Positions 3,216 to 6,898 of a DNA stretch of 64,000 bases are shown here, one piece after another (position 1 is the stretch's first letter; every line of letters starts with the position of its first letter). Location of the stretch: NCBI RefSeq assembly GCF_019049245.1, contig NZ_JAGMUK010000007.1, positions 79,887 through 143,886 of the forward strand, read 5' to 3'. Both the position numbers and the translations under genes were made by a program. The notes under the pieces were generated by a model. The model did not search any database and had not been told where the DNA came from. It was given only the letters and a program-made list of their open reading frames with translations. This stretch comes from Streptomyces sp. AC555_RSS877 (GTDB lineage: Bacteria > Actinomycetota > Actinomycetes > Streptomycetales > Streptomycetaceae).

Positions 3216-5327
3216 GTGGGCAGACCGTTGCACGGGCGCGGGGCGCTGTTCGACACCGATCCGGCCGGCCTTGCTCCGCGGCTCGTGGGCCTGCGTCCGC
3301 ATCAGCACCGGGCCACTGCCGTGGAGCATCCGAAGGAGCTGCCCTTCGTGCTGCTGACCGGGGGGCGCGGGCTCGGCAAGAGTGCGGTGCTCGGCGAGTT
3401 GCGGGACGCCTACAAGGGGCACACACCGGTCGCGTCGATCGACTGCGAGGACGTCCAGTTCGCGAGGCCGACCGGGGGGCGGCCCCTGGAGGCCTGGTCG
3501 CCGGTGTCGCAGGCGCTGCTGGTCGTCGCCGAGCAGCTGGCCGAGCCGGTGACCGGGGCCGGGCGGATCGCGTTCCCGCGGCTGATGTCGGGTCTGGTCG
3601 CGGTCGCGGCGGGCGGCTGGGACGACGCGGACTCCGAGCGGATCCGGCGCGAGGTGGAGCGGATCCTGCTGCTGAACGAGGGCGGGTCGTGGGTCGCCGG
3701 GTTCGCGGGGCGGATGGCCGGCCGGGTCACCGCCAACGTCGTCGCGGCGGTGAGCGGCACCGGGCCGCTCGTGGCGTCGGCGATCGAGGCGACCCTGGAG
3801 TCCTTCTCCGACAGTTTCGTCAACCGGCGCCAGCAGCGCGCCTCCGCCTGGTGGCGCGACTACCCGAACGCGGGCGGCGACGCCCGGCGCGGGCTGATCC
3901 TGCTGTCCGGGCACTTCCGGGCCGGCGGCACCTCCCGGGAGCACGCCGAGCGGTATCTCGTACGGGCGCTGCTCGCCGACCTGGCCGACGCGTACGCGGG
4001 GGTGCTGCCGCGGATGCAGCGGCTGGGGCGGCCCCTCGTGCTCATCGACAACGCGCACCAAGCCCCCGGTCCCGGCCTGGCCGACGCCATACTGCGCGAC
4101 CGCGCCGGCGGGATCGCCGACCAGGTCGTGTTCGTCGGCGGTCTGCGCGGCACCGACCGCCCGGTCCTGCGCAGCGCCGTCCGGCGGACCCTGGCGGAGG
4201 TCGCGCGGCGCGGCGACTGGGCGCCGGACCCGGCGGCCCCGTCGTCCCGGGCGCTGCTGGTGGCGCTGCCGCCGCTGAGCCCGGACGACACCCTGCACCT
4301 GGTGGGCGCCGCCTGCGCACAGGCTGCGGTGCCGCCCCAACTGCCGTACGCCATCCACCGGCTGACCGGCGGCAACCCGCTGGGGATCGTCCACCTGGCC
4401 GACTCCGCCGCGCAGAACCTGCCGGGCGCCGCCTCCCTCGGGGAACTGCTGACCGCGGACGTACGGCTGGACGACGACCGCGACGGGCGGCCCACCTATC
4501 TCGAACTCCTCGACCGGCTGGTGCCCGCCGACCGGCTGGACGAGCTGACCGTGCTGGCCGCCGCGCACGACCACGCCTCGGCCTGCGCGCTCGCCGAGGC
4601 GCTTCTGCCGGACGACTTCGGCCCGGCGGACGTGCGGGCGCTGGAGACCCGGCTGGTGGCGGAGGGGCTGCCGGAGGTGCCGGGCCGGTTCGTCGGGGAC
4701 TTCTTCGTACGGACCCTGCTGTTGCTGCGGCTGCACCACCGGGACCCGGACCACGGGCAGTGGCGGCAGGCGCACGAGACGCTGATCCGCTACTACGCGC
4801 ACGCGGCCGACGACGACGATCCGGCCCGCGCCCGCTACCGGCTGCACCACGAACTCGCGCTGGGTGGCGCGGAGTCGGCGGTGGCGTACCTGCGTGACAC
4901 GTTCCCCGCTCTGGACATCCGCGTCTGGCTGCGGTCGCTGCGGTTCATCGCGTCGGCGCCCTACTTCCACGCCCACGACCCCGAGGGCCACGACTTCGCC
5001 GGAGCCGGACGGGACGACCGGCGGGCGGCGGTCGCGCTCGGGCGTACGGACGCCGGGCAGGTCGTGCCGGAGGGTGCGGACGCCGTCCTGCACCTGCGCA
5101 TACGGCGGCTGCTGCACGCCGTGTGGCAGCTGACCGACCCGCTCGCGCTGCCCGACGCGAAGGTGTGCGACCGGCTGCGGTTCGAGCTGGAGCAGCTGTC
5201 CAACCTGCGGCCGGCGGGCAACGCGCTGCTGTGGCGCGCCTCGCGGGACTGGCCCGAGGACGCCCTCGCCGGGCGGGCGTTGCGCGTCCCGGACGACGAC
5301 GAGGACGAAGCGGACGGGGAGGCGTGA
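3216..5327 (+). CDS. P-loop NTPase, STAND-like, coupled to a receptor-like gene
   Basis: This 703-aa soluble protein has a Walker A motif at about 49-56 (GGRGLGKS), a Walker B-like strand at about 272-280 with D278 (RPLVLIDNAH), and a TGGNPLG motif at about 383-389. The GNPL-type motif is typical of STAND and related AAA-type signalling ATPases. The C-terminal third is helical and Arg/Leu-rich without a recognised domain. The GTG start follows a GGGGGGAGAG ribosome-binding site. Its TGA overlaps the ATG of the next gene (ATGA), a binding-protein-like membrane protein, implying a paired function. I cannot name a specific family. Confidence 0.75.
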   Translation: MGRPLHGRGALFDTDPAGLAPRLVGLRPHQHRATAVEHPKELPFVLLTGGRGLGKSAVLGELRDAYKGHTPVASIDCEDVQFARPTGGRPLEAWSPVSQALLVVAEQLAEPVTGAGRIAFPRLMSGLVAVAAGGWDDADSERIRREVERILLLNEGGSWVAGFAGRMAGRVTANVVAAVSGTGPLVASAIEATLESFSDSFVNRRQQRASAWWRDYPNAGGDARRGLILLSGHFRAGGTSREHAERYLVRALLADLADAYAGVLPRMQRLGRPLVLIDNAHQAPGPGLADAILRDRAGGIADQVVFVGGLRGTDRPVLRSAVRRTLAEVARRGDWAPDPAAPSSRALLVALPPLSPDDTLHLVGAACAQAAVPPQLPYAIHRLTGGNPLGIVHLADSAAQNLPGAASLGELLTADVRLDDDRDGRPTYLELLDRLVPADRLDELTVLAAAHDHASACALAEALLPDDFGPADVRALETRLVAEGLPEVPGRFVGDFFVRTLLLLRLHHRDPDHGQWRQAHETLIRYYAHAADDDDPARARYRLHHELALGGAESAVAYLRDTFPALDIRVWLRSLRFIASAPYFHAHDPEGHDFAGAGRDDRRAAVALGRTDAGQVVPEGADAVLHLRIRRLLHAVWQLTDPLALPDAKVCDRLRFELEQLSNLRPAGNALLWRASRDWPEDALAGRALRVPDDDEDEADGEA

Positions 5328-6898
5328 TGGCGGGGAGCGGTGCGGGCGGGGGTTCGGGCAGAGGCTTCGGCACCCGGCTGCGTGAGGGGATCTGGGAGAT
5401 ACCGCTGCGCCGCTGTCTCGCCCTGCTGGTCGCCGCCGCGGTGGTGGCCGGGCTGGTCCTCGGCGTCCGGGTGCTCGCGCACGACGACCGGTCCTGCGCG
5501 GCCGGGGTGGTCCGGCCCGAGGGCAGCGACGAGTGCGTGGGCGTGTCGGCGACGGACTACTACTTCGGCCGGCCCCAGCTGCGGGAGACCGTCAGGGCGA
5601 TCGACCGGGAGAACAGGTCGCTCAAGGCGGACAGCTATGTCACCGTCGCCCTGCTCGAACCCTTCACCTCGACCGACGCCGACAACCTCGGGGACGTCCT
5701 GCACGAGTTGCAGGGCGCGTATCTGGCCCAGTACCAGGCCAACCACAAGTCGGCCGGGCAGACCCCGGCGATCCGGCTGGTGCTGGCCAACCCCGGGGCG
5801 ACCGGCGCCCACTGGGAGCACACGGTCGACCAGCTGGAGAAGATGACCGAGGGCCCGGACCGGCTGCGGGCGGTGACCGGGGTGGGGCTGAGCACCGAGA
5901 ACAACAAGAAGGCGGTCGCCGAGCTGACCCGGCGCGGGATTCCGGTGATCGGCTCCTCCATCACAGCCGACGACCTCGCCAACGGTCAGGACGGCACCGA
6001 TCCCTTCCCGGGGCTGGCCCGGGTCTCCCCCACCAACACCGACGAGGCCCGCGCGCTCGCCTCCTTCGCCAAGGTGACCGCGGGCAACGCGCTGCTGGTG
6101 TACGACAAGCCGGGCGACCCGTACACGACGACGCTGCAGAAGTCGTTCGCCGACCTCATCAAGGGCTCGCCGTACGAGCCGCAGCCCTTCACCCCGCCCG
6201 ACGACCGCAGCCAGGAGGGCACCACCGCCAACACGTTCCGGCAGATCACCCACCTGGTGTGCGACACGGCTCCGGACACCGACACCATCCTGTTCGCCGG
6301 ACGCCACACCCAGCTGCGGCAGTTCATCAACGCGCTCGGCGGGCGCGGCTGCCAGGACCGCAGGTTCACGCTGCTGACCGGCGACGAGGGCTCCTACCTG
6401 ACCGGCGACAAGGACCTCGACCGCAGCGCCCTCACGCACAACCTGTCCGTGCGCTACACCGCCCTCGCCCACCCGGACGCCTGGACGAAGGACCCGGCGA
6501 AGACGGGCGGCTCGGCGCAGGGCGCGAGCGTCCTGAACGGTCTGCTCGCGAGCAGCAAGCGCGAGCCGGTCGGCCCGATCGGCCCGATCACCCTGTCGGA
6601 CGGCCAGCTGATCATCGCTTACGACGCCATGCAGCTGGCCGTCAAGGGCATCCGCGAGGCCACCCCCGACGGCGAGGTGGTCCCGCCGCTCGCCGATGTC
6701 GGCCTGCAGTGGCCGCAGGTCAAGGGCTCGCTGAAGGTGAGCGGGGCGAGCGGCTGGATCTGCCTGGACGTGCACGGCAACCCGTACGACAAGGCCGTAC
6801 CGGTGGTGGAGGTGACCCCGCAGGGCGCCAACCGTTTCGTGAGGATCGCCTGGCCGGAGGGAAAGCCGCCGGCGGAGGAGTGCCTGCCGCCGTCGTAG
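5327..6898 (+). CDS. Membrane-anchored periplasmic-binding-protein-like receptor
   Basis: This 523-aa protein has a short basic cytoplasmic N-terminus, one transmembrane helix at about 31-50 (CLALLVAAAVVAGLVLGVRV), and a long extracytoplasmic region. That region resembles type I periplasmic binding proteins of the branched-chain amino acid type, with alternating Rossmann-like halves (VTVALLEPF, RGIPVIGSSI, ALLVYDKPGDPY). There is no lipobox and no ABC permease or transport ATPase nearby, so a transporter role is unlikely. The ATG overlaps the stop of the upstream NTPase gene. I infer a ligand-sensing receptor working with that NTPase; the ligand is unknown. Confidence 0.7.
   Translation: MAGSGAGGGSGRGFGTRLREGIWEIPLRRCLALLVAAAVVAGLVLGVRVLAHDDRSCAAGVVRPEGSDECVGVSATDYYFGRPQLRETVRAIDRENRSLKADSYVTVALLEPFTSTDADNLGDVLHELQGAYLAQYQANHKSAGQTPAIRLVLANPGATGAHWEHTVDQLEKMTEGPDRLRAVTGVGLSTENNKKAVAELTRRGIPVIGSSITADDLANGQDGTDPFPGLARVSPTNTDEARALASFAKVTAGNALLVYDKPGDPYTTTLQKSFADLIKGSPYEPQPFTPPDDRSQEGTTANTFRQITHLVCDTAPDTDTILFAGRHTQLRQFINALGGRGCQDRRFTLLTGDEGSYLTGDKDLDRSALTHNLSVRYTALAHPDAWTKDPAKTGGSAQGASVLNGLLASSKREPVGPIGPITLSDGQLIIAYDAMQLAVKGIREATPDGEVVPPLADVGLQWPQVKGSLKVSGASGWICLDVHGNPYDKAVPVVEVTPQGANRFVRIAWPEGKPPAEECLPPS

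Follow-up and report, generated by a model that had tools for sequence, protein, structure and literature searches.

Overlapping Streptomyces genes for a predicted flytrap receptor and a STAND-type NTPase as a probable transmembrane signalling pair

The window analysed here is a stretch of 64,000 nucleotides from Streptomyces sp. AC555_RSS877, lying on contig NZ_JAGMUK010000007.1 (positions 79,887 to 143,886; our C237) of a 10.4 Mb genome. It contains two co-directional genes sharing the single base 5327, the first for a predicted STAND-type nucleoside triphosphatase (NTPase) and the second for a receptor with one predicted membrane span and a predicted external flytrap domain (Table 1). Both reading frames, of 703 and 523 amino acids (aa), occur exactly where an earlier note, made from this sequence alone, had placed them; the ATGA overlap described in that note is actually TGATG. 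The two genes probably encode one transmembrane signalling unit, composed of a flytrap receptor and an NLR-like STAND switch, since they are neighbours at numerous unrelated loci of related genomes and, in one branch, adjoin a gene with NLR domains. Each protein has a single match within the window's genome at E ≤ 0.01 and the pair is conserved genus-wide, so that the arrangement goes beyond chance.

Table 1. Coordinates of the two genes and of their motifs, domains and candidate residues (window positions unless a locus is named)
Feature	Position	Strand	Details	Basis
STAND-type NTPase gene	3216..5327	+	703 aa; GTG start, preceded by GGGGGGAGA	open reading frame
Walker A GGRGLGKS, residues 49-56	3360..3383	+	Lys in 76/79 orthologues, remaining 3 gaps	
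Walker B strand LVLIDNAH, residues 274-281	4035..4058	+	second acidic position is Asn; D278 in 76/79 orthologues	
GxP-type motif TGGNPLG, residues 384-390	4365..4385	+	G386 94%, P388 85% over 72 aligned rows	
Stop/start overlap TGATG of the two genes	5325..5329	+		sequence
Single-span receptor gene	5327..6898	+	523 aa; ATG start; AlphaFold2 (AF2) pLDDT 83.6	open reading frame
Cytosolic juxtamembrane stretch, residues 18-30 (L18 R19 E20 W23 I25 R29)	5378..5416	+	candidate NTPase contact	
Predicted transmembrane helix, residues ~32-51	5420..5479	+	helix 24-51 in AF2 model	
Stalk C57-C70, cysteine pair outside the span	5495..5536	+		conservation
Type I periplasmic-binding-protein (flytrap) domain, residues 103-515	5633..6871	+		predicted structure
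Candidate pocket Ser189	5891..5893	+	matches mGluR5 stretch GPGSSS; S in 79/79 orthologues, 105/107 others	alignment
Candidate pocket Thr213	5963..5965	+	matches Thr of mGluR5 SATS; T in 79/79 orthologues, T/S in 100/107 others	alignment
Candidate pocket Tyr266	6122..6124	+	matches Tyr of mGluR5 NYGESG; Y in 79/79 orthologues, 99/107 others	alignment
Candidate amine-binding Asp353	6383..6385	+	D in 79/79 orthologues, 38/107 others	
Members of a 227-328-aa family at other loci	L051:6870-7766, L053:9177-10049, L069:8696-9379, L073:8675-9565, L309:5561-6547			

The NTPase carries all three motifs reported in the earlier note (GGRGLGKS, IDNAH and TGGNPLG), i.e. the Walker A P-loop of STAND NTPases with its Lys at position 55, part of a Walker B strand, and the GxP motif that is a hallmark of the class. 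Confident models predict a STAND fold for the protein, including the core of nucleotide-binding, helical and winged-helix domains. Profile searches of both proteins, a check proposed in the same note, answered in part: for the NTPase, Pfam AAA_16 gave a weak match below its cut-off (E 6e-6, 27.3 bits relative to 32.6), and for the receptor nothing useful was returned. An identical protein is assigned PF13191 in a database listing. Pfam found no NACHT domain (PF05729) in the NTPase and no effector, caspase or cyclic nucleotide (cNMP) cyclase domain in either protein; an NCBIfam scan gave nothing useful for either, and PADLOC gave no match. In the Walker B of STAND NTPases (hhhhD), a second acidic residue follows the Asp and may be required. 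Because Asn occupies this position (279) in 74 of 79 orthologues, with Asp in 2 and a gap in 3, NTPase activity of the window protein may be weak or absent.

The mean net charge of the receptor is +2.4 before the predicted span and -2.3 after it. On the cytosolic side, between 46 and 50 of the 50 relatives aligned retain each of L18, R19, E20, W23, I25 and R29; the preceding residues 1-16 are less conserved, in part since some rows of the alignment begin late. Outside the span, C57 and C70 are each present in 78 of 79 orthologues, and in 98 and 104 respectively of 107 other receptors, and they may form a disulfide. As for the outer part of the protein, which the earlier note had taken for a type I periplasmic binding protein (PBP), structure prediction agrees: confident models show the two-lobed PBP type I (LIV-binding-protein) fold, the nearest solved folds are LIV-type binding proteins, an mGluR5 profile matches at E 2e-6, and Foldseek is in accord with a flytrap receptor fold. 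Pfam Peripla_BP_6 did not match the window receptor; relatives score 24-28 bits and one fused receptor (L121) 44 bits, relative to a cut-off of 31.7. Asp353 may be the equivalent of the amine-binding acid of mGluR and LIV proteins.

Likeness to LIV-type binding proteins, and the corresponding names that some sources give to relatives, could indicate that the receptor serves an ABC amino-acid importer as its solute-binding protein, with an unrelated NTPase as neighbour. We give this explanation next to no credence. Solute-binding proteins of importers have a permease in their operon or neighbourhood, but no BPD_transp_2 permease was found on the window contig, in keeping with the earlier note, and all 37 of the genome's matches lie on other contigs. 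Nor are receptor homologues usually accompanied by ABC permeases, a pattern that the note had said would defeat its proposal: among the 2402 proteins called in 237 fetched loci, a LIV-type permease profile, which in a control detected a left-out permease, matched two, each encoded on the other strand from the pair. Four or more spans are predicted for 57 neighbours, of which six were named by Pfam, the rest being covered by the LIV-type profile only; the six include one BPD_transp_1 protein (two genes from the L093 pair) and one ABC2_membrane protein near L161, and no LIV-type permease. The adjacency of receptor and NTPase also persists at unrelated loci, and receptors fused to a kinase or a helix-turn-helix (HTH) domain occur (see below). 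A role in ABC transport was dropped in view of the missing BPD_transp_2 on the contig and the near-absence of such permeases from relatives' loci.

Conservation of the pair was assessed in loci chosen from the receptor and NTPase match lists, which are not random samples, and in genome searches that scored the best candidates per genome only (7 NTPase, 9 receptor), so that the genome counts are lower bounds. Among 150 Streptomyces genomes, NTPase matches were found in at least 64 and receptor matches in at least 113, and the receptor adjoins the NTPase at 65 of 71 NTPase loci (64 by match tables, and one, L051 of genome G102, by profile). The six loci without an adjoining receptor are in G084, G105, G106, G023, G125 and G136 (contig end); G023 and G125 have truncated NTPases of 319 and 367 aa. 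At the 80 named orthologous loci (the best 80 of 227) the genes are paired in 78, the receptor of L187 lying at a contig edge and L247 being without an NTPase in the gene calls. The pair idea thus withstood the count of adjacent co-occurrence by which the earlier note had proposed to judge it. As determined with a simple gene caller, 36 of the 78 paired orthologues have a gap of -4 between the genes and 19 a gap of -1, and the ATGA-type overlap is therefore the commoner form among relatives.

Separate receptor genes (650 aa or less) directly follow an NTPase gene in the window itself (1/1), in 78 of 80 cases at the named orthologous loci, in 95 of 97 cases in the Streptomyces-centred fetched set, and in 12 of 17 cases in the set from outside the genus. 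The Streptomyces-centred set includes a few loci from other genera; its two exceptions are L106 and L110, the latter an HTH fusion. Of the five exceptions outside the genus, L151, L155, L162 and L164 are without an NTPase and one is the second tandem copy in L163. One partner is a short fragment in L156 and L158, and L154 has no receptor in the gene calls. The two proteins also show co-evolution: over 90 pairs, the correlation of tree distances is 0.75, compared with a maximum of 0.11 in 500 permutations, and 38 of 61 supported NTPase splits reappear in the receptor tree. Nearest neighbours agree for 58 of the 90 pairs, whereas 15 of the NTPase splits are at odds with supported splits in the receptor tree.

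Several individual loci depart from the usual arrangement. Two tandem receptor genes lie behind a single NTPase gene in L163:5565-9012. The NTPase is found without a receptor at the cytochrome c locus in L031:3687-5774, L032:6847-9045, L035 and L036, in truncated form in the latter two. The receptors of L155, L162 and L164, all from one genus, stand without an NTPase beside a gene of 655-664 aa, identified by Pfam as peptidase M3 in L155 and L162; this association of the peptidase with three receptors was set aside as coincidence. A search for a recurrent third gene gave a cluster near 16 loci, SpoIIE-like as judged by eye, which mixes syntenic loci and may be due to chance.

Upstream of the pair lies a co-directional gene of 321 aa, and the opposite-strand genes downstream resemble cytochrome c biogenesis genes as judged by eye. 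The pair might serve these genes in redox or haem sensing, given that three of them are retained at 77-79 of 80 orthologous loci and that such genes also flank the receptor at 8 of 113 other loci. We regard this as very improbable, because they are on the opposite strand in the window and, at the 105 other loci without them, are missing from the neighbours examined.

Receptors with other domains in place of a separate NTPase are informative about the function of the pair. Long receptors, with an extra part before the span, number 30 in the Streptomyces-centred set and 3 outside it. The N-terminal part of 23 of the first 25 found aligns to the NTPase profile, in three groups with hhalign E values of 1e-23, 3e-10 and 1e-22 (one comparison each), and none of the 25 has the P-loop pattern. 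L109 and L124 are outside these groups, and the analysis was made without L169, L170 and L266-L270. The match is weakest for the middle group (E 3e-10), whose NTPase-like part contains an additional hydrophobic stretch that makes the topology uncertain. In L110 (5644-7503), the N-terminus is an HTH_31 domain (E 2e-7, above the cut-off), followed by a predicted span at ~127 and the flytrap, and L109 (4794-7133) has a similar HTH with the span at 276; both are possible membrane-bound transcription factors. Used as a query across the class, the L110 protein has matches in at least 48 of 393 genomes and at least 15 of 124 genera (best 3 candidates scored per genome). Outside Streptomyces, L152 (5165-7873) combines a Ser/Thr kinase N-terminus (E 1e-45), a span at 416 and a flytrap, and a kinase-FHA gene adjoins the flytrap receptor in L151 (4748-7382). 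These fusions suggest that flytrap and span form a sensing module whose partners can be exchanged. Together with the adjacency and the lack of a permease link, they support the view, already put forward in the earlier note, of a receptor with a cytosolic signalling partner. Long receptors of ~960 aa with a degenerate NTPase-like part (L050:2824-5700, L112, L113, L116, L117, L125, L127, L129 and L130) occupy one conserved Streptomyces locus, beside genes that by eye are hrcA- and hemW-like.

A different association was found in one sister branch, with NTPases of the Walker A type GxHGxGR(S/T), where the pair is immediately preceded by a gene of ~1073 aa. Pfam scans of this gene in two members detect an NNH1 domain (E 1e-45 in L055, 4e-48 in L071) and a NACHT domain (E 2e-27 in L055, 7e-26 in L071), with LRR above the cut-off in L055 (E 3e-7). 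The NTPase branch is present in at least 22 of 392 Streptomyces genomes at E ≤ 1e-100 (two candidates scored per genome), and a homologue of the L055 NLR adjoins its NTPase in 21 of the 22 (six loci and 15 of 16 others), the exception being G536, with the least similar NTPase (49%). In the reciprocal search of the 392 genomes, again with two candidates scored in each, the matches listed comprise 21 NLRs with at least 67% identity, located exactly at the NTPase-branch loci, and others with at most 52%. The flanking genes differ between several locus groups, so that the three genes seem to move as a set. In all 21 NTPases of this cassette, Arg replaces the Walker A Lys, and Walker B reads DD in 16, DN in 4 and DE in 1. 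The three-gene cassette of NNH1-NACHT-LRR NLR, STAND protein with the K-to-R exchange and flytrap receptor is seen at L055:1257-8424, L251, L252 and L294-L308. In nearby branches, the NLR position upstream of the pair is held by a family of 227-328 aa to which no name is assigned (Table 1); Pfam gave no match for its L051 and L053 members, nor did NCBIfam for the one in L051. NNH1 has no match in the window's own genome, in a search that gave matches in 8 of 12 genomes, and the window pair is therefore a two-gene form.

The sister-branch NLR and the STAND-like fold raise the prospect of an anti-phage or self-destruct conflict system, in which phage or a damaged envelope would be sensed by the receptor and answered by the STAND protein with cell death; TM-PBP (membrane-anchored PBP) domains have been reported for the EACC1 caspase conflict system (Kaur et al. 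2020, PMC7159879). This seems improbable for the window pair, considering that neither an effector domain nor a PADLOC match was found, that its genome is without an NNH1 match, and that its orthologues keep a stable neighbourhood. Phage sensing by the window locus is speculation, even though the sister branch has an NLR gene.

Erosion of the nucleotide site in relatives provides the main rival, in which the NTPase-like protein is not a switch but a scaffold or adaptor binding the receptor tail and an effector while its nucleotide site is being lost. Position 55 is Arg in 29 and Ala in 14 of 107 non-orthologous partners, and the Arg of all 21 NLR-cassette partners, the missing P-loop pattern of the long receptors and Asn279 of the orthologues fit the same picture. 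We nevertheless think it unlikely. K55 and D278 are each retained in 76 of 79 of the window protein's own orthologues, the other three being gaps, Walker B is DD or DE in 17 of the 21 NLR-cassette partners, and the model shows a STAND-like arrangement.

In the favoured reading of a receptor coupled to a STAND switch, sequences and counts establish the genes with their overlap and adjacency, the domain swaps and the NLR cassette, and the folds are predictions of confident models. From these we infer a ligand class, a tail contact, nucleotide switching, oligomerisation and an output as follows. The predicted external flytrap domain would bind an amino-acid-like ligand, and its closing would alter the oligomeric state of the receptor or its stalk (C57/C70). 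The signal would cross the single membrane span to the NLR-like STAND NTPase inside, which the conserved receptor tail (L18-R29) may touch. The NTPase would then open and oligomerise with nucleotide bound, hydrolysing it slowly or not at all. In the sister branch, the pair would most likely feed the NNH1-NACHT-LRR NLR encoded just upstream. A broader proposal, which we put forward tentatively and rate somewhat below even, is that of a surface-to-NLR signalling class in multicellular actinobacteria, in which an external flytrap that senses amino acids would govern, through the membrane, an NLR-like STAND protein. The window pair would be its core unit, the sister-branch pair would serve as the outside trigger for a full NNH1-NACHT-LRR NLR, and the receptor would be a plug-in module that has exchanged its cytosolic partner for a kinase, a DNA-binding domain or, by fusion, a pseudo-NTPase.

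In most known STAND and NLR proteins, the sensor is part of the protein itself and the signals detected are intracellular. Compared with STAND NTPases such as NLR resistosomes, the CED-4/Apaf-1 type, MalT and Avs, the window NTPase differs in that no effector domain was found and its Walker B ends in DN, and the sensor of the pair appears to be a separate membrane protein. In the AmiC-AmiR amide sensor of Pseudomonas, by contrast, the AmiC protein resides in the cytosol and is bound to an RNA-binding regulator. The receptor differs from the LIV-type binding proteins LivK and LivJ by its predicted N-terminal span and cytosolic tail, and LIV-type permeases are absent from the window contig and, apart from the two opposite-strand cases, from relatives' loci. 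The predicted use of a flytrap fold as a membrane receptor is shared with the ectodomains of class C G protein-coupled receptors and natriuretic-peptide receptors; the window receptor differs from these in its single N-terminal span and in its apparent partner, a STAND NTPase rather than a seven-transmembrane domain with G protein or a cyclase. No description of the receptor-NTPase pair was found in the literature searched. The nearest printed precedent found is the TM-PBP domain in the actinobacterial EACC1 system, a two-gene, membrane-associated system of which some members have such domains, with the PBP fused to a caspase or cyclase protein (PMC7159879). The window pair differs in having no caspase match and a separate STAND NTPase as partner.

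If correct, the one-to-one pairing of STAND genes with genes for a separate flytrap membrane receptor of the amino-acid type, joined by an NLR gene in one branch, would constitute a distinct route from the outside of a bacterium to such switches. The pair is common among sampled Streptomyces genomes, and a soluble flytrap domain allows a direct ligand screen. With the bacterial NACHT NLRs (bNACHT), the likeness resides in the NNH1-NACHT-LRR gene directly upstream in the sister branch, whereas the window NTPase has no Pfam NACHT match and its genome no NNH1 match. Under the broader proposal, the sister branch would represent a cell-surface arm of NLR signalling in bacteria.

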